Positions 22,642-53,849 of a stretch of DNA of 64,000 nt are shown one piece after another. Source of the stretch: Nanohaloarchaea archaeon SW_7_43_1 (GTDB taxonomy: Archaea > Nanohalarchaeota > Nanosalinia > Nanosalinales > Nanosalinaceae). Where the stretch lies: the NCBI GenBank assembly GCA_003009795.1, contig PXPE01000001.1, positions 508,739-572,738 of the forward strand, in the 5' to 3' direction. The first letter of the stretch is position 1, and each line of letters starts with the position of its first letter. The position numbers were made by a program, and so were the translations under genes. Below the pieces are notes generated by a model that made no database searches, had not been told where the DNA came from, and worked only from the letters and a program-made list of their open reading frames with translations.

Positions 22642-25107
22642 TTGGATAGAGCTGAGGAACAGAAAAACACCACATCCATACTTTGGACGGGAGAACCAGA
22701 AGAAAGTTTGAAAACAGTTCTCAGAGAATACATGTACAGAGGCCCGAAATTCTTGACGCAGGAACCGGAAACTCCATACAATAACAATTTGTTCTCAAAC
22801 CACTTCCTCAAGGAAAGATTGGAGAACCTTGAAGAGTGGAAACAAGCCGATGTAGAACAAGAATTTGAGGAATTACGGGAACTATGGGATGAAAAGAAGC
22901 GATACCTAAAGAACCAGCCCAATGAAGATAATACACAGGACGAGTGGATTGATGAGGTACTCAATATAATTGGACATAAGCAATGGAGTAACGAACCTAC
23001 AAAGACTATAGGGAACGGAAGAAACCTTAATCCAGACTACCTGTTCTTCAAAGACTTTGAGACTAGGCTGGACTCGGATGACAGTGAAAACGAATTCGAG
23101 GAAGGTTATCTAATCGGGGAAGCCAAGAAATACGGAAGAACACTTGACAAATCGATGGACAACCATGAGAACCCATCATTTCAGATCTTCAACTATGTAG
23201 ACCGGCTACGAACACCGTGGGGATTACTCACCAACGGAAAGAGATGGAGACTATACAGCTACGAAGACTGTGAAGCCGATGTCTTCTACGAAATCGATAT
23301 AGTAGAAAACATACTCAAAAAAAGTGACAGAGAAACAGCCTTACAGAACTTCAAACACTTCTACCTATTCTTCAGGAAGGAAAGCTTCCAACCAAGCCAG
23401 AACGGGTTCGTAGACCAAATATTCGAGGGATCGGAAAACTACTCTAGAGGCTTGGAAGATGACTTAGAAGACGATATCTATGCAGCCCTAGAGGTAACAG
23501 CCAGAGGATTCTTCGAAACCAATGATATAGAGAAAACAGAAGAGAACATAGAGGAAGTTCACAGAGCTTCACTCATTCTTCTCTACAGAATGTTGTTTAT
23601 CTTGAACGCTGAGAGCCGTGGACTCATGCCGATGGACGAGAAGAAGTACAGATTAAAACTCAGCCTCGAATACCTCAAAGGACAGCTGGAAGACGAAAAC
23701 AACGATGTCTTTAGCCAAGATACATGGGCTTGGGATAGAAGAATCCGACCGCTGTTTGAAGCTATTAACGAGGGAGAACAGTACGGCGAATTCAAGATCA
23801 CAGCCTACAATGGAGGGCTTTTCGATGAAGAAAAACATCCCTTCCTCGCCCAATATGAACTACAGGGAAACCACGTTAAAGACATAATGGAACTTCTCGC
23901 TCAATCCACTGACAAGGAAACAGAAGACAAGGTACTCGTAGACTACCGTGACCTCAACATCCGACACTTAGGAAGCGTATACGAAGGGCTACTAGAACAC
24001 GAACTACGGAAAGCTGAAGAGGATCTTGTATTAGAAAACGGAGAATGGAATTCAGCCTCAGACTCCAAAAAAGACCTCGAAGAGCTACCAAGAAAACAAA
24101 AAGTCAGAGAAGGCGAAGTATACCTTACCAACGAGTCCGATGAGAGAAAGGCTACAGGAAGTTATTATACTCCAGAGTATATCGTTGAATACATAGTAGA
24201 AAATACTGTAGGTCCGAAGGTAGAAGATAAGATAGAGGAAAGCGATTCAGAAGACCTACTCGATCATGTTCTGGACCTGAATATCTGTGATCCAGCTATG
24301 GGCTCAGGACACTTCCTAACCGAAGCCACCAGCTTCATCGCCCGAAGATTAATCGAACACGGAAAGATACCGGATGAAGAAGTAGAAGGAGAGAACGAAT
24401 TTGTATGGGTAAAGCGACAGGTCGTAAGCCACTGTATCTACGGAGTTGACATAAATCCTCTCGCAGTAGAACTCGGTAAATTATCACTCTGGATCGAAAC
24501 CATGGCTGAAGGAAAACCGCTATCCTTCCTCGACCACCACCTAAAAGTCGGAAACAGCTTAATTGGTTCTGACTTCGATGAGATCTTCTCACATCCTACA
24601 GAAACACAGAAAAGAGTTGACAGCGACAGATGGCAGTTCGTAGGCTCTCCAGAAGACCTGAAAAAACAGTTCCAAGAAGACTACAAGGAAATCGAGGAAA
24701 TGGAAGAAGACACTAAAGAAAAAGTCCATGAAAAGGAACAGGAGTATCAGGAATTCAAAAACTCCACACTATACACACAAATCCAACAACTCGCTAACAT
24801 CCACACAAGACAATTCTTTGAGGAGGAAGCTAACTCCAGTGACTACGAAGACTTCATCGTAAACATTGGCAAGGAAGAAAACGCCATGAAAACCATGGAC
24901 TGGTTCAAATCAGCCCAGAAAGACGCTGAAGACAGAAACTACTTCCACTGGCAACTAGAATTCCCAAAGGTATTCTTCAGCCAACAAAAAGGAAAAGCTG
25001 AGCAAAAAGAAAGTGGACACACACACACACACGATTTCTTCTACAGGCTTCGACGCAGTAATAGGAAACCCTCCATGGGTAAGCTTTGGTCTGAGAAATG
25101 CAGGTGA
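22642..25107 (+). pseudogene. Eco57I-like restriction-modification enzyme, 5' part, ends by frameshift at (AC)8
   Basis: This frame carries a PD-(D/E)xK-like nuclease domain near the N-terminus (NPDYLFF near residue 131, LIGEAKKYG near 159), a helical region, and the first half of an N6-adenine methyltransferase: TGSYYTPEYIVEYIV, the SAM motif DPAMGSGHFL near 550, and GVDINPLAVELGKLSLW. The last sensible residues are FHWQLEFPKVFF; the frame then runs through the AC tract and stops 25 codons later. The catalytic NPPW lies in the next frame. The start is uncertain: TTG at 22642 is the first codon available, and protein-like sequence also appears upstream in another frame. As written, the enzyme would be inactive. 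Confidence 0.85.
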
Positions 25108-26836
25108 ACTTCCAGATAATGTCGAGAACTACTATCGCCAATCCTATCCTAACTCTGCACAGTACAAGCTAAGTACTTACGCTATCTTTATGGATAGAGC
25201 ATTGCAAATATGCTCTGAAGACGGTTTTAACAGTTTTATAGTGCCAGATAGTTACTTGTTAGGCCAATACTTCGAAAAGATTAGGAAAAGAATTCTATCT
25301 AGCACCTCGGTTAAAGAAATAACTCTTATTTTGGAGGACTTTTGGGAAGATGCCACTACAGGTAGAAACACTGTTTACTGTTTTGAAAAAGGAAATGAAA
25401 CAGAGAATGAAATGAGAATTCAGGTTGCCCAAACGCTTGAAGAATTTGAGAACAATGACCAAAGAGGAACAGTGTATAGTCAGTCCTTCTTCAATAGCCG
25501 ACCTCTAAATAGATTCCACCTTTTCTTCGAAGATTCACAGAAGTCGTTTGTAGAAACTGTAGAAGGTGAATCAAGTAGAGTGATGAAAGATGACTTAGAT
25601 ATCAATACCGGAATGCGTTCAAGAACTACTCAAGATGAAATCAAGGGAGGAGAGAAGAAAGGAAAGAAATGGAAGAAAGGAATAATTTCCAGCGGTCAAG
25701 TTCTTCCTTACTCAGTGTCATATGGAGGAGATTATCTACATGCTGAAGGCGAAAAACTTTTCCATGGAGGCTGGGATCCTGATATAGTAGAACAAGACGA
25801 AAAGATTATGATTCGGCAGACGGGGGACAGAATCATTGCGGGATACGATGATAATCAACTTTATCATCTAAATAATACTCACTCAGCAGTAACTCGATCG
25901 GATGTTGAAGCGCCGGTGATGTTCTATGTATCCTATCTTAATTCCAGCTTGCTGTTCTCATACTATATTCTCACGACACTTGAATACGGCAGAACTATGG
26001 CTCAAACAGATATAGAAACTCTGGAAAAATTACCTTTGAAAGTTCCAGAAGAGCTGAATGATCTGAACTTTGACGAAGAGGATCTTTTAGAGAGTAGAAA
26101 AATCGATGATCTGAATCTCTCTGAAGATAAAATTCCAGCAGCTCTCTCAAAATTAGGATTTGAAATTAATGAGTTAAGAGAGGAATTGAATTCAATCAAT
26201 CTCAGCATCCTGGATTATCTTGGGAATTATTCTGACGGTAAAACTCTCGAAGACCTCTACACGCCGGTTGAAGGGCTTTCCGACAGAATTCTTAGTGATA
26301 CTTCTGCTGATCGTGATTCTTTGAAGATTGAAAGTGTTGAGTTTGAAGAGAGAAACGGTCAGTTAGTCTTGAAGGCTTCTGCTCGTTATAAGCCCGAAGA
26401 CAGTGGAGACATTGATGAAGATGAGTTGGACCAGTGGGGTTACTTTGAGACCGAGTTAGTGCCCGTAATGAGGTTTGATGTGGATGAGAAGTTGAAGCCT
26501 TTGATTGAGGAGTTTGTCAGTTTAGCTGTGGATGAGGCTGGCGGCTTCGCCAACTTCAGGGAGTCAGCTACAAAAACCAACTCTGTCGTCGACAGATTGG
26601 AAAAATTGACTTTGCCAAGACTAGAAGATGTAGAAGATGGACTTGAAAAATTCATTGAAAACAGGAAAGAAGCTGAAGAACTGGAAAAAGAGATTCAAGA
26701 GACTGACGAATTGATCGATGCAATCGTCTTCGATCTCTACGGTCTGACAGAGGAGGAAGTTAAGGTAGTATTAGACTCGTTGGATGTGGATGAGGATGAA
26801 AATAATTCTATCTTGGACAAATTTGGTGAAATTTGA
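25013..26836 (+). pseudogene. Eco57I-like restriction-modification enzyme, 3' part
   Basis: This frame continues the enzyme with GFDAVIGNPPW, the catalytic NPP[YWF] motif of N6-adenine methyltransferases, then the remaining methyltransferase fold, a target-recognition region and a C-terminal coiled coil. It is one base out of step with the upstream frame. A GTG at 25013 is the first start-like codon but lies beside the AC tract without a Shine-Dalgarno sequence, so separate expression is doubtful. Adding one AC unit, or removing two, joins both parts into about 1398 residues, the size of a single-chain type IIG enzyme. Its TGA overlaps the ATG of the next gene. Confidence 0.85.
25017..25032 (+). 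repeat. (AC)8 dinucleotide tract at the frameshift
   Basis: Eight perfect AC units lie exactly where the restriction-modification reading frame breaks, between the LEFPKVFF block and the GNPPW block. Eight units put the second half out of frame; nine or six would put it in frame. Slipped-strand mispairing at such tracts is the classic on/off switch of phase-variable restriction-modification genes. Confidence 0.9.
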
Positions 26837-47795: not shown

Positions 47796-48179
47796 TCAAG
47801 GCACGATTATCTTCGCTTGTTCAACCTTGCTCGATGCCTGCAATTTGTTGTATAGCTGTTTTACTTTACCTGCTTCTCCGTGTAGCATAAATACTTCCAG
47901 ACATTTGTGTTCGTCCATATGATTGTGGAGTTGAGTCGTAATCGTTTCCTGGTAGTCGTGCTGTATATCGTCGATTTCTCCTGAATCTTCGTCCTTATGA
48001 GTTACAATTACTACAGCATCTACTATTCCCTCAAGATCTGATATTTCTTTTCTGTCTCTGAGTAATGCTCTGACAGCTGTTCTCATAACTTCACTTCTAC
48101 CTGAGAAACCTTGTTCGTCCATAAAGTCGTCAATATCTTCAAGCAGTGTATCGTTCAGTGATACGCTTACAACACTCAT
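47796..48179 (-). CDS. NikR-like ribbon-helix-helix metal regulator
   Basis: The first 45 residues are a ribbon-helix-helix DNA-binding domain (SVVSVSLNDTLLEDIDDFM, GFSGRSEVMRTAVRALL). The C-terminal ACT-like domain carries HDYQETITTQLHNHMDEHKC, which places His, His and Cys as in the nickel site of NikR. The 127-residue length is near normal. Nickel or another metal may be the effector. No nickel transporter lies nearby; the closest metal-related gene is the CooC-like ATPase 2 kb downstream, divergent and without proven link. Confidence 0.82.
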   Translation of the reverse strand: MSVVSVSLNDTLLEDIDDFMDEQGFSGRSEVMRTAVRALLRDRKEISDLEGIVDAVVIVTHKDEDSGEIDDIQHDYQETITTQLHNHMDEHKCLEVFMLHGEAGKVKQLYNKLQASSKVEQAKIIVP

Positions 48180-48382
48180 ATTGTTACATTTTTCTACTAA
48201 TTTTATTAAGAATTGTTAATCATTGCTCGTGCCCAAAACAGGCGTTTATCAGTAAAGAGTAAGATGTTCATAAAACGGATTTTCGCCAACTGTAAATATA
48301 ACTAATCAGATCTGAATTGATCTTGTATAGATAGTTATTTTACTGTTCAGGAATTCTCAAGAAGGAATAAGAAAAAGAATTT

Positions 48383-49204
48383 CTAGTTGGCTAGTCCTAC
48401 ATAATGTGGTTCTGCCATCGAGAATAAGCCAACCGGGCTGACTCGAAGTTCCATTGAGTCAGTGTCTGCTGATTCTGGGACATCGTATGCTACATTCCCA
48501 TCTACTTGGACCCCTGGATTGAGTTGTTCAAATGTAAAGCTATCTTCCATGTAAGCCCACGCTTCTGAGCTTGTACTATATTCTGCTTCATCAATCATTA
48601 GCTTCAAACTTGACTCTCTCATCCTAATCGCTTCATTTGCCTCATTCATTACAGTCATATCTACAAGTATAAACTTTCCATCTGCTTCCACTCCTATCAA
48701 TGTGCCATAACTTCGTTCTCCTATCTCTTTTCTTGTTTTCACGCCATTTACCTGATATCTGACATCTCCGACTGTGAACTCATCACCTATTGAGTGTGTA
48801 CGGCTTTCTTTAGTGTTCTGGGATTCTTGTTCATTTTCTGAATTTACCTGTTTATTTGATGGCTGTTCTTCTTTTTCCGACTCATTTTGCTGATTATTAG
48901 AGTCTTGCGTAGGTTGCTCCTGCTGATTATCTGCCTTCGATGTCGTAGCTGAAGTTCCTGTACTATCTTGAGTAATAGCTGCTCCTAGTCCGATTCCCAC
49001 AAATGCTATCAATACTACAACCCATCTTGAAAATTTTATACCCAATCTATCATCTATTCCTTGTCTAACATTAGGTATTAGAAATATTCCTGTTATGAAG
49101 TAGATTATTGCTGCCGGTACGCTCATTGTGAGGGAGCCAAGCCCTGCGAGAATCAGTAGGATGCCAAAGCCCCAACTAGCCATGTTGCTCAGTTTTATGT
49201 TCAC
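48383..49204 (-). CDS. Membrane protein with DUF4352-like external domain
   Basis: 273 residues: two membrane segments at about 12-46 and 60-80, a low-complexity Gln/Asn/Ser/Glu linker (about 83-135), then a beta-rich domain with SIGDEFTVGDVRYQVNGV and FILVDMTVMNEANEAIRM, the pattern of the DUF4352/telokin-like immunoglobulin fold. This is a typical surface anchor-linker-domain protein in haloarchaea and Gram-positives. Function unknown. Confidence 0.7.
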   Translation of the reverse strand: MNIKLSNMASWGFGILLILAGLGSLTMSVPAAIIYFITGIFLIPNVRQGIDDRLGIKFSRWVVVLIAFVGIGLGAAITQDSTGTSATTSKADNQQEQPTQDSNNQQNESEKEEQPSNKQVNSENEQESQNTKESRTHSIGDEFTVGDVRYQVNGVKTRKEIGERSYGTLIGVEADGKFILVDMTVMNEANEAIRMRESSLKLMIDEAEYSTSSEAWAYMEDSFTFEQLNPGVQVDGNVAYDVPESADTDSMELRVSPVGLFSMAEPHYVGLAN

Positions 49205-49275
49205 ATTCTCTATTTAGGAATTGAAGCTTATAAAGTGGTACGCCATGATGTACGATAGCTGTAATTTCGTTATTC

Positions 49276-49582
49276 ATGTCTCTGAAGCCTGATACGGTTC
49301 ATGAAAGACGAAGATTGAAAAATCCTATCCAAAATCAAAAGATCTAACTACAGGCTTAAAATCCTCAAATACTTGCAAGACATAGGAGAGCCCAGAACAC
49401 CTACCGAGATAAGTTCCAAAACAGATATTTCCAGAAGCCACGTGAGCCGTACACTAGGTAACCTGAAAGACTCAAACTTGGTTGAGGTTCTAAATCCTGA
49501 CGCACACTACGACAGAAGATACAGGATTACTGAAAAAGGAACAAAAATAATAGAGAAAATTAAAGAGATCCAGGAAGAGTGA
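49276..49582 (+). pseudogene. MarR/ArsR-like winged-helix regulator with frameshift near its start
   Basis: From 49319 one frame gives a clean winged helix: YRLKILKYLQDIGEPRTPTE, DISRSHVSRTLGNLKDSNLV, then the wing and RYRITEKGTKIIEK. The only ATG that fits its length, at 49276 (MSLKPDTVHERRRLK), is one base out of step and joins at an A5 run (49318-49322); another ATG at 49301 is in frame but meets a TGA at 49316. Without a frameshift the first usable start is TTG at 49373, which removes helix 1. Either one A is extra in the sequence or the gene is decaying. It converges on the SerK-like gene. Confidence 0.6.
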
Positions 49583-49596
49583 AAAATCACCGATTC

Positions 49597-49953
49597 TCAC
49601 TGAATCTCGCTGTGTCTGGATGTCTTCGGAGGGAAAAGCTCATTACTGAGGCCTTTCTCAATAACTTCTTCCTTGGTTATCTCTCCATTCTGGTGTGGTT
49701 CAACCGTTATTTCATCCGAATTATAGTTGACAAGTTTGCACGGAATCTCCTCTAGTCCAAGCAGAGCGAATGCCTCTGCCCTGTGATGTCCGTCAAGGAT
49801 TACTCTAGTTTTTTTATCGACTATTATAGGTTCCTTCAGTCTTTTTTCGACTTTAAGAGAGGTTAGAACTTTCTTCAGGTTTTCTTCAATTACTTGCTCG
49901 TGTGGACTGAGTTTTCTGATTTCTATGTTCTGTATCTGTTCTTTGTCTTGCAT
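49597..49953 (-). CDS. ParB/Srx-fold protein, SerK/SbnI-like serine kinase candidate
   Basis: A 118-residue ParB-like domain: KEPIIVDKKTRVILDGHHRA is the nucleotide-binding motif (DGxHR) found in ParB, sulfiredoxin and the archaeal free-serine kinase SerK, and IPCKLVNYNSDEITVEPH matches the segment after it in SerK/SbnI proteins. Serine kinases of this fold make O-phospho-L-serine. The next genes, divergent by 170-220 bases, encode a CysK-like enzyme that could use O-phosphoserine and a PLP decarboxylase. It is shorter than SerK (about 240), so only the catalytic core is present; a ParB-type DNA or regulatory role remains possible. Confidence 0.6.
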   Translation of the reverse strand: MQDKEQIQNIEIRKLSPHEQVIEENLKKVLTSLKVEKRLKEPIIVDKKTRVILDGHHRAEAFALLGLEEIPCKLVNYNSDEITVEPHQNGEITKEEVIEKGLSNELFPPKTSRHSEIQ

Positions 49954-50162
49954 TTCGTTCTGCCTCGTAGAGTCGATATTTGGCGTTGATAGTTTTTCCG
50001 TTTCAGATTTATATTAATGCTATACTTCTGTCTTAACTTATATTATTAAAAAACTTAAGATTCTTTAACAAAAACATGATAGGAAGAACTCAAAACGAAT
50101 CTGTTGATACAACTATAATGACAGGATGGCTTGGAGCAGAGCAAGCAACTCGGACAAAAACA

Positions 50163-50170
50163 GAGGTGAT
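50163..50170 (+). promoter_or_regulatory. Strong Shine-Dalgarno fixing the start of the CooC-like gene
   Basis: GAGGTGAT lies four bases before the GTG at 50174 and matches the 16S 3' end. It argues for GTG 50174, right before the P-loop strand, over the longer frame that starts at 50126. Confidence 0.6.
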
Positions 50171-50173
50171 AAT

Positions 50174-51127
50174 GTGAGAACAGCATTTGTAGGAAAAGGT
50201 GGAAGCGGGAAATCAACACTAGCCGCACTGTTCATAGAATATCTCAAAGACCAGGAGAAGCAGTTTCTAGCGGCGGATGCTGACATCAACCAGCATCTTG
50301 CAGAGCTGATAGACGCAGATTTTGAAGCCGAGCTTGCAGTATCAAAAGAGGAGAACTCGAAGAAAGTCAGAGAGTATGTCAAGGGCGATAACTCTCGGAT
50401 TAAAGATCAATCAAATGTTGTGAAAAGCACGCCTCCAGGCAGAGGCTCAAACTTCATCAGATTAAACGGAAAAAATAAGATTCTCAGCGATTTGGCGACC
50501 GAATACAGCGATAACTGGTTTATGCACATCGGAACATACGAAAAAGAAGGAATTGGAGCAAGCTGCTACCATACATCGTTAACTTCTTTCGAAAACATTC
50601 TCTCACACCTGAAACTGGAGAAAGATGAATGGCTCGTATCCGATATGGTGGCGGGGACTGATGCATTCGCAAACACACTTCATGCACAGTTCGACCTCAT
50701 AGTTCTCGTGGTTGAGCCAACACCTGAAGGAGTCAAAGTCTATGAACAGTATAAAGAGCTTTCACAGGAAGCCGGAGTTTTCGAGAGTATAGCTGTGGTC
50801 GGTAACAAAGTAGATTGTAAGCACGACAGAGAATATCTGCAGGAAAACATCGACTCGGAGATAATCGGTTATCTGCCGAGAAAGCCCGAAATCAAGATGG
50901 CACGACAACAGCACAATCCGTTAAGCTTGGATCTACTGAACTCGGATGAAAAACAGGTCTTCCAGAGGATAGCGGAAACCTCAGAGGATCGGAAAGTCGA
51001 GTCTGATGAAAGACTTGAGAAACTAAAGGAAATCCACCGCAAGGTCTCTAAGAAACAGCATATTAAGGATGCCTGCGGGGATGTCAAAACCCAGATAGAT
51101 GAAGAGTTCTCCTGGAGTGAAGTATAA
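50174..51127 (+). CDS. CooC/MinD-type P-loop ATPase
   Basis: The chain starts with RTAFVGKGGSGKST, the deviant Walker A of the MinD/CooC/Mrp group. DADIN, the SDMVAGTDAFANT switch and LIVLVVEPTPEGVKV follow in the order of CooC, the ATPase for nickel insertion in CO dehydrogenase; IGASCYHTS sits where CooC has its Cys motif. No CO dehydrogenase is nearby. The stop overlaps the next ATG (TAATG), so it is coupled to the PLP decarboxylase and may mature or gate an enzyme of this cluster. Function beyond ATPase is inference. Confidence 0.75.
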   Translation: MRTAFVGKGGSGKSTLAALFIEYLKDQEKQFLAADADINQHLAELIDADFEAELAVSKEENSKKVREYVKGDNSRIKDQSNVVKSTPPGRGSNFIRLNGKNKILSDLATEYSDNWFMHIGTYEKEGIGASCYHTSLTSFENILSHLKLEKDEWLVSDMVAGTDAFANTLHAQFDLIVLVVEPTPEGVKVYEQYKELSQEAGVFESIAVVGNKVDCKHDREYLQENIDSEIIGYLPRKPEIKMARQQHNPLSLDLLNSDEKQVFQRIAETSEDRKVESDERLEKLKEIHRKVSKKQHIKDACGDVKTQIDEEFSWSEV

Positions 51128-52545
51128 TGCTGGAACTGACTCCAAAAACCAATAGAGTAGTAGACAAAATCGTTCAAGACGAAGAAACACTGAAAGAACT
51201 GGCAGATGGCTTCGGCTCTCCGCTAAACATAATGCTGCCAGAAAACTTCTCAAAGAATATTCAGGCATTCAGAGATGTCTTCGATGAACACGGAATTGAA
51301 GGCAAAATATTCTTCGCCCACAAAGCCAACAAGTCAGAATCCTTAATCGCTCAAGGCAGAACGGAAGATATCGGTATTGATGTGGCATCGGAAAACGAAC
51401 TCAAAAATGCCTTATCGAAAGGATTCAAGGGAGAGGAGATACTTGCAACAGGTCCGAAAAATAGAGAGTTTCTCCGTTTAGCAGTTCATCACGGATGTAC
51501 ACTGCATATCGACAGCTTTGAAGAGCTTAAGAAAGTCGAAGAATACAGCCGCCAGTTTGAAACGGAAACTGATGTCTTGATTAGGTTGAACAATTTTGTT
51601 CCGAGAGACAGGAAAGCTATACAGAAAAATTCACGGTTCGGAATATCTACAGGAAAGAAAGACGAGGTAATCCGGAAGCTCGATGAATACGACTCAGTAA
51701 ACTTCCAGGGCTTTGCGTTTCACTTGGACACTGCGAATATGCGGAAGAAGGCTATCGCTCTTCAGAACATTTTTGATCTGGTGAAAGAGTTCCACTTAGC
51801 AGGATACCAAACCCAGATACTGGACATCGGAGGTGGAATGAAAGTAAACTACCTGGAGAGCGGAGAGGAATGGAGCGAATACCTTGAAGCAATTCAGGAA
51901 TCTGTAGCAGGTAAGAGAGAAGGAATAACATGGGACAGCCACAGTTTTGGACTGCGTTCCGAAAACCAGAGCGTGAAAGGCTCGGTCGATTTATACAGTT
52001 ACTACAATGAAACAGCGAAAGACGACTATCTCTGCAAACTGCTTTCCAGAGAAATACCAGGCTATGAGAGAACGTTCAGAGATCTTCTCAGGGATTATAT
52101 GATAGAGCTTTACATCGAGCCAGGAAGAGCTTTACTCGATTTAGCAGGCATAACAGTCGGCAAAGTCAGTTTCGTGAAAGAAGATGCCTGTGGAGAAAAA
52201 CTGGTCGGGCTCGATATGAACAATTCAAATATCAACCCGAAGAACTGGGAACTGATGGTAGACCCATACATCATCCACAGAGACGAAGACAGGGAAGATC
52301 TTGATGGAGGCGTATTTTTCGTGGGCAACCTCTGCCTGGAATCAGACTTTATCTACAAACACAAGACCTTTCTTGACAAGAAACCAGAAGAAGAAGGCGA
52401 TCTCATAGTTTTCGTGAACACCGCAGCATACCATATGGACTTCGGAGAATCAAGAACGATTCAGCACGATACAGCGGACAAAATAGCCGTTTACGGCGAC
52501 AACAACTGGAAAAAAGACGAACTCTATACGGGTGAAGAAATGTGA
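51127..52545 (+). CDS. Fold-III PLP decarboxylase (LysA/SbnH/Y4yA-like)
   Basis: 472 residues in the ornithine/diaminopimelate decarboxylase fold. The PLP lysine is in FFAHKANKSES, a barrel strand in GFAFHLDTAN, the phosphate loop in LDIGGGMKVNY and the substrate Glu/Arg in YIEPGRALLD; the dimer-contributed C-terminal Cys/Asp lies in GNLCLESDFI and an aromatic block in AAYHMDF. Altered HxGS and GAY motifs separate it from ordinary LysA. SbnH of staphyloferrin B and the Y4yA family are similar in type. It overlaps the CysK-like gene by four bases, so their products probably act in sequence. Confidence 0.78.
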   Translation: MLELTPKTNRVVDKIVQDEETLKELADGFGSPLNIMLPENFSKNIQAFRDVFDEHGIEGKIFFAHKANKSESLIAQGRTEDIGIDVASENELKNALSKGFKGEEILATGPKNREFLRLAVHHGCTLHIDSFEELKKVEEYSRQFETETDVLIRLNNFVPRDRKAIQKNSRFGISTGKKDEVIRKLDEYDSVNFQGFAFHLDTANMRKKAIALQNIFDLVKEFHLAGYQTQILDIGGGMKVNYLESGEEWSEYLEAIQESVAGKREGITWDSHSFGLRSENQSVKGSVDLYSYYNETAKDDYLCKLLSREIPGYERTFRDLLRDYMIELYIEPGRALLDLAGITVGKVSFVKEDACGEKLVGLDMNNSNINPKNWELMVDPYIIHRDEDREDLDGGVFFVGNLCLESDFIYKHKTFLDKKPEEEGDLIVFVNTAAYHMDFGESRTIQHDTADKIAVYGDNNWKKDELYTGEEM

Positions 52546-53849
52546 AATATGACTCGATAACAGAGCTGATCGGCGATACCCCGATGCTGAAACTCGATAG
52601 AGGAGTCACAGGACTTGAAAATATAGATGTGTATGTCAAACTGGAGTATCATAGTCCTTTTGGCTCGATCAAAGACAGGGTCGCCTGGGAATTAATCAGA
52701 GACGACATAGATGAAATCAAGGAAAAGAATCAGACGCTTCTGGAGTCTTCAAGTGGAAACACAGCTAAAGCAATTCAGGGAATCGCAGGGGCAAATGGAC
52801 TTGACTTCAAGACAATCACTAACCGTATCAAAGTTGATGAGGTCAAGGATATTCTCATCATGATGGGAGCGGAGATAGAGGAGCTTCCAGGGAAAAGTGA
52901 ATGTCCAGATCCAAACGATCCTGAAGATCCGCTTACATATCTCGACCAGTTAATGGCGAGAGAGGGCGAAAAATACTTCCGCACAGGACAGTATACCAAC
53001 AAGAAAAACACTCAGGTTCACAGGGAGCAGACAGGACAGGAAATACTTGACGACCTTGGGAAAGTCGATTACCTCTTCGGCGGACTCGGAACAACAGGCT
53101 CAACTAAAGGCACAGCACAGAAGCTCAAGGAAGAAAATCCCGAGCTCAAAGTAACAGGTATAGTATCATCACAGGACGACTTCATACCAGGAATCAGAAC
53201 CGCAAATGAGATGTGGGAAGTCGGGCTATACGAGAAGGAACTCTATAATGACAGAGCAGTAATCGATTCAAAAGACGCCTTGGAGGGAATGCTGACACTG
53301 ATTAGAAACTGTGGTATCCTGGCTGGTCCAACCACGGGAGCAAACTTCGTAGCGCTGAAACGAAAGCTTTCAGAAATCGACCAGGAACTGGAAGAAAAAC
53401 GAACAGCGATATTCTTCGCCTGCGACCGATTCGAACACTATCGCTCATACATCAAGGAAAGAAAACCAGAAATCTTCGGTGGAAAGGAGAGAGAAGGCAC
53501 AGAAACACTGACGGAACAAGAGCTTGAACAGGTTCCAGAAATATCGGTAGATAACGCAGAAGAATGGATTGAAGAGGAAAAACCAATTATTGTTGATTCA
53601 AGGTCCAACCCTGCCTACCAGATGGCACATATACCAGGCTCAATCAACATACCTGAAGAAAAACTCAAAGAGATGATAGAAACAGGCAAACCTATCAACA
53701 TGAATCAGAAAATACTGCTGGTCTGTCCAGGAGGCAGAAAATCCAGGAAATTCGCCGCCTTGTTACAGAGAGACAACTTTGAAGCATACAACCTGAAAGA
53801 AGGAGTTACAGGATGGAAAAGCGGGGAGAAAGAACTCGGGACGGTTTGA
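52542..53849 (+). CDS. CysK-like PLP enzyme fused to a rhodanese domain
   Basis: Residues 1-325 form a cysteine-synthase-type fold II enzyme: SPFGSIKDRVAWE carries the PLP lysine, ESSSGNTAKAI the substrate loop and GGLGTTGSTKGT the phosphate loop. Residues 345-435 form a rhodanese domain with an active-site Cys in LLVCPGGRKSRKF. The enzyme could exchange the beta-substituent of O-phosphoserine or O-acetylserine for sulfide, an amine or another nucleophile, with the rhodanese carrying sulfur. SbnA uses the same chemistry with glutamate. The GTG start overlaps the previous stop and has GGTGAA upstream. Confidence 0.82.
   Translation: MKYDSITELIGDTPMLKLDRGVTGLENIDVYVKLEYHSPFGSIKDRVAWELIRDDIDEIKEKNQTLLESSSGNTAKAIQGIAGANGLDFKTITNRIKVDEVKDILIMMGAEIEELPGKSECPDPNDPEDPLTYLDQLMAREGEKYFRTGQYTNKKNTQVHREQTGQEILDDLGKVDYLFGGLGTTGSTKGTAQKLKEENPELKVTGIVSSQDDFIPGIRTANEMWEVGLYEKELYNDRAVIDSKDALEGMLTLIRNCGILAGPTTGANFVALKRKLSEIDQELEEKRTAIFFACDRFEHYRSYIKERKPEIFGGKEREGTETLTEQELEQVPEISVDNAEEWIEEEKPIIVDSRSNPAYQMAHIPGSINIPEEKLKEMIETGKPINMNQKILLVCPGGRKSRKFAALLQRDNFEAYNLKEGVTGWKSGEKELGTV

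Follow-up and report, generated by a model that had tools for sequence, protein, structure and literature searches.

Known gene clusters for [S,S]-ethylenediaminedisuccinic acid (EDDS)-type aminopolycarboxylic acids combine a cysteine synthase, a DapDC-like decarboxylase and an ornithine cyclodeaminase-like dehydrogenase (OCD) (PMC13206832), and EDDS production is under zinc/Zur control (PMC6103462; PMC9252823). Fda4 of Fusarium poae, a CysK-like/rhodanese protein, condenses O-phosphoserine (OPS) with L-Ala (PMC12751119), and the serine kinase SerK of Thermococcus feeds cysteine synthesis (PMC5120207). The four genes in this report lie in a 64,000-nucleotide stretch (the window) of Nanohaloarchaea archaeon SW_7_43_1, whose reduced nanohaloarchaeal genome is a single contig of 956,550 bases, and they encode a short SerK/SbnI-like protein, a CooC-like ATPase, a fold-III pyridoxal 5'-phosphate (PLP) decarboxylase and a CysK-like enzyme fused to a rhodanese domain. 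We consider it moderately probable that they form an OPS-based pathway for a small metal ligand, which could be a metallophore or a chelator that handles metal, and that this pathway is linked to nickel in the archaea and, in many cases, to zinc in bacteria. The data show which genes are present, that they are conserved, that their active sites are intact and that metal genes lie nearby; from this we infer every reaction, the product and the regulation.

All four genes are open over the coordinates in Table 1, which, together with their domains, agree with the initial annotation in giving three overlapping plus-strand genes and a divergent ParB-fold candidate, the SerK-like gene. The CooC-like stop and the decarboxylase start have one base in common (TAATG, 51125-51129), and the decarboxylase stop overlaps the CysK-rhodanese start by four bases (GTGA, 52542-52545). 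The set also occurs elsewhere, a point that the initial annotation had left to a neighborhood search: exactly 3 of 28 genomes of the phylum carry the four proteins together, namely the window genome (G000), Nanohaloarchaea archaeon SW_4_43_9 (G027) and Nanohaloarchaea archaeon SG9 (G016). One of the two further genomes is of another genus, and the CooC-like and decarboxylase proteins are 88-92% identical. Because the four genes are kept in these two genomes, and the decarboxylase/CysK-rhodanese pair (the core pair) is kept in bacteria, a chance arrangement is excluded.

Table 1. Features of the cluster and its surroundings, in window coordinates
Feature	Position	Strand	Details
SerK/SbnI-like short protein, ParB fold	49597..49953	-	118 aa; candidate free L-serine kinase giving OPS
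CooC-like MinD-superfamily ATPase	50174..51127	+	317 aa; likely GTG start at 50174, open reading frame reaches back to 50126
Fold-III PLP decarboxylase, Y4yA/DapDC-like type	51127..52545	+	472 aa
CysK/SbnA-like PALP domain fused to rhodanese	52542..53849	+	435 aa; candidate OPS-dependent beta-replacement enzyme
NikR nickel-responsive regulator	47796..48179	-	NikR_C E=2e-18; PRK01002 E=8e-27
Remnant of cobW 5' end	50076..50177	+	MIGRTQNESVDTTIMTGWLGA compared with CobW MMRRTQDESVDATILTGRLGAGKTT; intact gene in G016
Candidate operator, perfect dyad TCTTAA-N18-TTAAGA	50031..50060		between SerK-like and CooC-like genes

The fusion protein has recognizable PALP (E=2e-44) and Rhodanese (E=6e-17) domains, and its PLP lysine K44, R219 and the rhodanese loop C395-P396-x-G398-x-x-S401 are invariant in 81 of 81 sequences. 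R219 aligns with Arg220 of Mycobacterium tuberculosis CysM, an OPS-recognition residue. The AlphaFold model of the fusion (mean predicted local distance difference test score [pLDDT] of 84) was compared with the PDB by Foldseek; the four best matches are all to aspergillomarasmine A synthetase (8h4h, 8h4q), extend over both domains and include an OPS complex, and CysK, CysM and SbnA rank below them. The identity to the synthetase is ~20%, and the relative placement of the two domains differs (root mean square deviation, ~19 Å). Thus, the SbnA-like label of the initial annotation stands insofar as the protein is SbnA/CysM-like with an Arg at the CysM Arg220 position, but its nearest overall match lies with the fungal synthetase. 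A plain SbnA assignment was set aside, since the family scores for SbnA and CysK hardly differ and neither reaches the cut-off.

The same protein could serve a route to cysteine or a cysteine-derived thiol, modeled on the OPS pathway of Thermococcus and the sulfur-carrier CysM route of Mycobacterium: SerK would supply OPS, the rhodanese would present persulfide sulfur, the CysK domain would make cysteine, and the decarboxylase would then make cysteamine or do something else. Such a route is unlikely in our view, though it has several points of contact with the data. The fusion is the only CysK-like gene that tblastn found in this reduced genome, which has a SufS-like desulfurase homologue elsewhere; the Thermococcus kinase plays the corresponding role; and the rhodanese loop, the alignment of Arg219 with CysM Arg220 and the desulfurase Cys of the bacterial loci described below (C369, kept in 77/77 partners) all fit this route. 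What the cysteine route leaves unexplained is the adjacent decarboxylase (79/80 loci) and the NikR, CobW, CooC and Zur/Znu contexts; it is also circular wherever the partner is a cysteine desulfurase, and the bond made by a fungal protein with this architecture is C-N. Since Fda4, with its CysK-like and rhodanese parts, joins OPS to L-Ala, a rhodanese fusion need not imply sulfur incorporation.

For the 118-residue protein, a search of curated family profiles gave the ADP-dependent serine kinase SerK as the best match (NF053625, E=6e-16) and SbnI as the second (E=1e-6), as expected from its initial description as a SerK/SbnI-like ParB-fold kinase. The solved SerK structure 5x0b also matches (E=2e-9), with the PHEQ, DGHHR and PPKTSRH segments aligned. 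Serine-kinase residues, whose presence the initial annotation had proposed to check, are retained: DGHHR, the C-terminal PPKTxxH and the catalytic PHEQ Glu, the residue changed to Gln or Ala in solved SerK variants. Bacterial short forms (30-33% identity) share these motifs, apart from some substitutions. The part of the description that does not carry over is the length. The protein is without ~100 central residues of the 242-residue SerK, so that its PPKTSRH segment sits ~100 residues further along in SerK, and its SerK profile score of 58 bits does not reach the 380-bit cut-off for full-length members. An AlphaFold model of the short SerK computed from three sequences was uninformative (mean pLDDT, 38.5), and therefore the fold assignment rests on sequence only. 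We regard the protein as a candidate free L-serine kinase making OPS.

The decarboxylase (Orn_Arg_deC_N, E=1e-30) belongs to fold III and its N-terminal domain is DapDC-like; its plasmid relatives carry the Y4yA family annotation. Residues H199, E331, R334, C403, E405, D407 and Y435 are kept in 80/80 sequences and K66 in 79, with one gap. No paper on Y4yA function or on the pair of decarboxylase and CysK-rhodanese turned up in the literature searches.

In the OPS-based metal-ligand pathway that we favor, the SerK-like protein would convert serine to OPS, from which the CysK-rhodanese would form the PLP aminoacrylate and add a nucleophile at the beta carbon. This nucleophile would most likely be an amino acid reacting through its amino group, by analogy with aspergillomarasmine A synthetase and Fda4, with rhodanese-delivered sulfur as the alternative; the bond formed would be C-N in the first case, resembling EDDS or aspergillomarasmine, and C-S in the second. 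The Y4yA-type decarboxylase would then remove a carboxylate from the conjugate to give an ethylenediamine-like or aminothiol-like ligand; a decarboxylated conjugate of OPS and an amino acid would be a ligand of the ethylenediamine type, the core of EDDS. The CooC-like ATPase, along with CobW where it is kept, may handle the metal or its delivery, and NikR may regulate the gene set. The product had earlier been left as a thiol, a metal ligand or the outcome of a cysteine or polyamine route. The metal ligand is the best supported of these because of the NikR, CobW and Zur/Znu neighbors, and the polyamine route has no specific support.

The nikR gene, which the initial annotation had not picked up, directly follows the SerK-like gene in both SW_4_43_9 and SG9 (loci L003 and L004) with a gap of ~26 nt, and in the window other sequence separates the two. 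This intervening sequence (48383-49582) holds a DUF4352 gene and an open frame ending at 49582 that resembles a winged-helix regulator, neither of which is seen there in the other two genomes. The SW_4_43_9 copy of nikR beside the SerK-like gene (L009 5548-5862) ends early in another frame, with loss of the nickel-binding C terminus, which could be an assembly error; that genome has another NikR on contig 21. The dyad between the SerK-like and CooC-like genes has no other exact copy in the window, and a copy with 2 mismatches (48182-48211) adjoins the nikR start. Window sites with ≤2 mismatches number 8, compared to 7.7 expected, and the arms are not fully kept in SG9, so the dyad is suggestive only as a candidate operator.

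The CooC-like protein has a CbiA/ParA-type ATPase domain (CbiA, E=7e-9), and its best solved match is CooC itself (3kje, E=6e-11). The QCYC segment of CooC is aligned with SCYH, and thus the CxC nickel-binding motif is not present; C131-Y132-H133 is invariant across the three archaeal and two Streptomyces proteins compared. The GTG start is more likely than the ATG at 50126, judging from homologues that begin MRTAFVGKGG and from the cobW remnant that occupies 50076-50177. The operon of SG9 opens with a CobW-family GTPase (CobW Pfam match, E=1e-16) and a 163-residue gene, and a 201-residue gene lies between its decarboxylase and CysK-rhodanese genes. The window genome and SW_4_43_9 retain only the first codons of this cobW, and CobW is otherwise rare among the 28 genomes.

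When bacterial and archaeal genomes were scanned with the fusion protein, 254 relatives were obtained, and the loci of the best 80 were retained for analysis. These belong mostly to Actinomycetota (Streptomyces, Micromonospora, Actinoplanes). The decarboxylase gene lies directly upstream of the fusion in 79 of the 80, the remaining locus being cut by a contig end, and the usual order continues with a SufS-like desulfurase (76 loci) and a methyltransferase (72 loci). An Obscuribacterales metagenome-assembled genome (L021 202-2913 and 8313-13899) encodes CysK-rhodanese twice, both times with a desulfurase-like gene next in order, and one of the two sets also has the decarboxylase along with genes of the GNAT and Fur families.

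Most actinobacterial loci keep the gene order decarboxylase, PALP-rhodanese, desulfurase, methyltransferase; the cysteines for sulfur transfer are invariant, and the context is one of metal starvation. These features could also reflect a sulfur-containing metal ligand. Desulfurase/rhodanese sulfur would be placed on an OPS-derived backbone, decarboxylation and, in bacteria, methylation would follow, and the product would be a new metallophore of the aminothiol or thioether type. In a nanohaloarchaeal relative (G025), a methyltransferase gene comes after a 56%-identical CysK-rhodanese gene that lies where the contig ends. However, both desulfurase and methyltransferase are missing beside the window genes, and the literature searches turned up no compound of this kind; we think this product rather improbable. 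Equally tentative, and also not what we expect, is a widespread and uncharacterized class of metallophore pathway common to Actinomycetota and DPANN archaea. Here a CysK-rhodanese supplied with persulfide would act with a dedicated decarboxylase to make a sulfur-containing nickel/zinc ligand from OPS, and the CooC-like ATPase would load or move the metal.

The zinc link of the favored OPS-based reading comes from the bacterial flanks. Two of the Streptomyces loci, L024 and L062, include divergent zur-znu genes together with a nearby CooC homologue; a CooC homologue in Nonomuraea was rejected as a module neighbor, being not adjacent to the module. In a profile search of 78 loci, ZnuA genes were found in 15, while 27 had at least one of the four markers ZnuA, ZnuB, CobW and Fur. 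Sixteen chosen genomes have 1-5 copies of ZnuA per 7-11 Mb (about 2-3 per 9 Mb), so ~0.4 would be expected in the 1.5 Mb of locus sequence. The 16-genome test is partly biased, some genomes having been picked with a ZnuA neighbor already known, and we used the 78-locus count instead; the excess is not a formal probability, as the loci are related and not phylogenetically independent. Sites resembling the Zur box were searched with the actinobacterial consensus (TGAAAATGATTTTCA) in the sequence upstream of the decarboxylase in 76 loci; 8 loci have one at ≤3 mismatches (1.0 expected) and 14 at ≤4 mismatches (2.7 expected). A de novo search for a common operator gave mainly GC-rich dyads common to close relatives, and these were set aside. 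Near many Streptomyces modules, small His/Asp-rich proteins with HGDHTDYAHDGH repeats, likely metal binding, are encoded beside an ArsR-type regulator (L048 14972-15271 and similar in 13 loci).

Several observations weigh against a metal-ligand pathway. The archaeal genes have no recognized exporter or importer next to them. In tblastn searches of the genome, neither ZnuA nor a family-5 binding protein was detected, and the only MATE-like match, which lies elsewhere, was weak and distant; no CbiM nickel importer was found in the phylum. A secreted metallophore is for these reasons unproven. NikR is present in 16 of the 28 phylum genomes and was rejected as an exclusive marker of the cluster. 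Among the bacteria, 51 of 78 loci have none of the four metal markers within the flanks examined and most of the 76 have no Zur-box-like site, so zinc control is not universal. Sulfur chemistry, for which a pure C-N pathway would have no need, is suggested by the strict conservation of the rhodanese Cys and by the desulfurase of 76 bacterial loci, and a sole CysK-like gene is compatible with plain cysteine synthesis.

Related but separate gene sets occur in other bacteria. The order in Agrobacterium vitis is short SerK, OCD, decarboxylase, CysK, MATE and an iron ABC importer; plasmid pMAH135 of Mycobacterium avium has CysK, OCD, Y4yA and MATE; and Methylocystis has a short SerK at the end of an IucA/IucC siderophore cluster. 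These sets agree with a short SerK that supplies OPS to siderophore-type pathways. The combination, first described as unusual, is kept in the archaeal relatives but is not unique, since sets with short SerK, OCD, decarboxylase, CysK and MATE occur in alphaproteobacteria. On a Sinorhizobium meliloti plasmid (L016 7980-10401), a short SerK, a GNAT acetyltransferase and a cysteine-synthase-family gene stand in a row without a decarboxylase.

The alphaproteobacterial sets with OCD and nonribosomal-peptide-synthetase-independent siderophore (NIS) clusters that contain a short SerK, and the presence in the window of SerK/SbnI, SbnA-like and SbnH-like chemistries, would fit a partial staphyloferrin-B-like route to L-2,3-diaminopropionate feeding a further product. 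Such a route is very improbable, since the decarboxylase is closer to the Y4yA/DapDC types, and tblastn with bacterial queries found in the genome, of which 2.3 kb are unread, neither SbnB (the OCD-like dehydrogenase) nor an NIS synthetase, although divergent genes could be missed by such a search. Their absence from the cluster, noted at the outset, thus extends to the genome as searched.

Elsewhere in the window, overlapping open reading frames of 821 and 607 aa (22642-26836, + strand) seem to be the two parts of a single restriction-modification enzyme interrupted by a frameshift, with the NPPW methylase motif in the second.

If the OPS-based metal-ligand reading is right, a DPANN archaeon with a reduced genome has a metal-ligand pathway with nickel-linked architecture, and the CysK-rhodanese/decarboxylase pair acquires a testable function in at least 79 loci, mostly in culturable Streptomyces and Micromonospora. 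Fungal aspergillomarasmine chemistry, EDDS-type zincophores and archaeal SerK would be joined in one comparison, and new nickel/zinc chelators could result. The core pair is widespread and uncharacterized in the papers found, and because cultured bacteria carry it, the question is directly testable.

Compared with described systems, the window set has in common with staphyloferrin B (sbn) a SbnI/SerK-like kinase, a SbnA-like PALP enzyme and a fold-III decarboxylase, but the sbn system has SbnB, NIS synthetases and an iron context, whereas the window has neither enzyme and a nickel/zinc context. It is not a staphyloferrin B system, and the earlier comparison with an iron-type pathway does not hold for the metals implied. 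With [S,S]-EDDS/aminopolycarboxylic acid metallophore clusters it shares a CysK-like enzyme and a DapDC-like decarboxylase, with zinc/Zur control in the known EDDS case; those clusters carry OCD and, in the portion of the source available, no rhodanese is described, whereas the window has rhodanese, CooC, NikR and a short SerK and no OCD, and so is not a cluster of the standard EDDS type. The PALP-plus-rhodanese architecture of the fusion is also that of aspergillomarasmine A synthetase, solved with OPS bound, and of Fda4, which uses OPS, but both are fungal and without a reported partner decarboxylase, SerK, CooC or NikR. The kinase and the CooC-like protein each miss one defining feature of their families. 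The free serine kinases SerK (Thermococcus) and SbnI have the same ParB-fold core with PHEQ, DGHHR and PKT-x-x-H at 242-254 aa, compared to 118 aa and a score under the family cut-off here, and the nickel-insertion ATPase CooC, likewise of MinD type, has a CxC metal motif and 254 aa, compared to C-Y-H and the longer 317 aa. We do not claim membership in a named system for the window set, which would work like an OPS-based chelator pathway.

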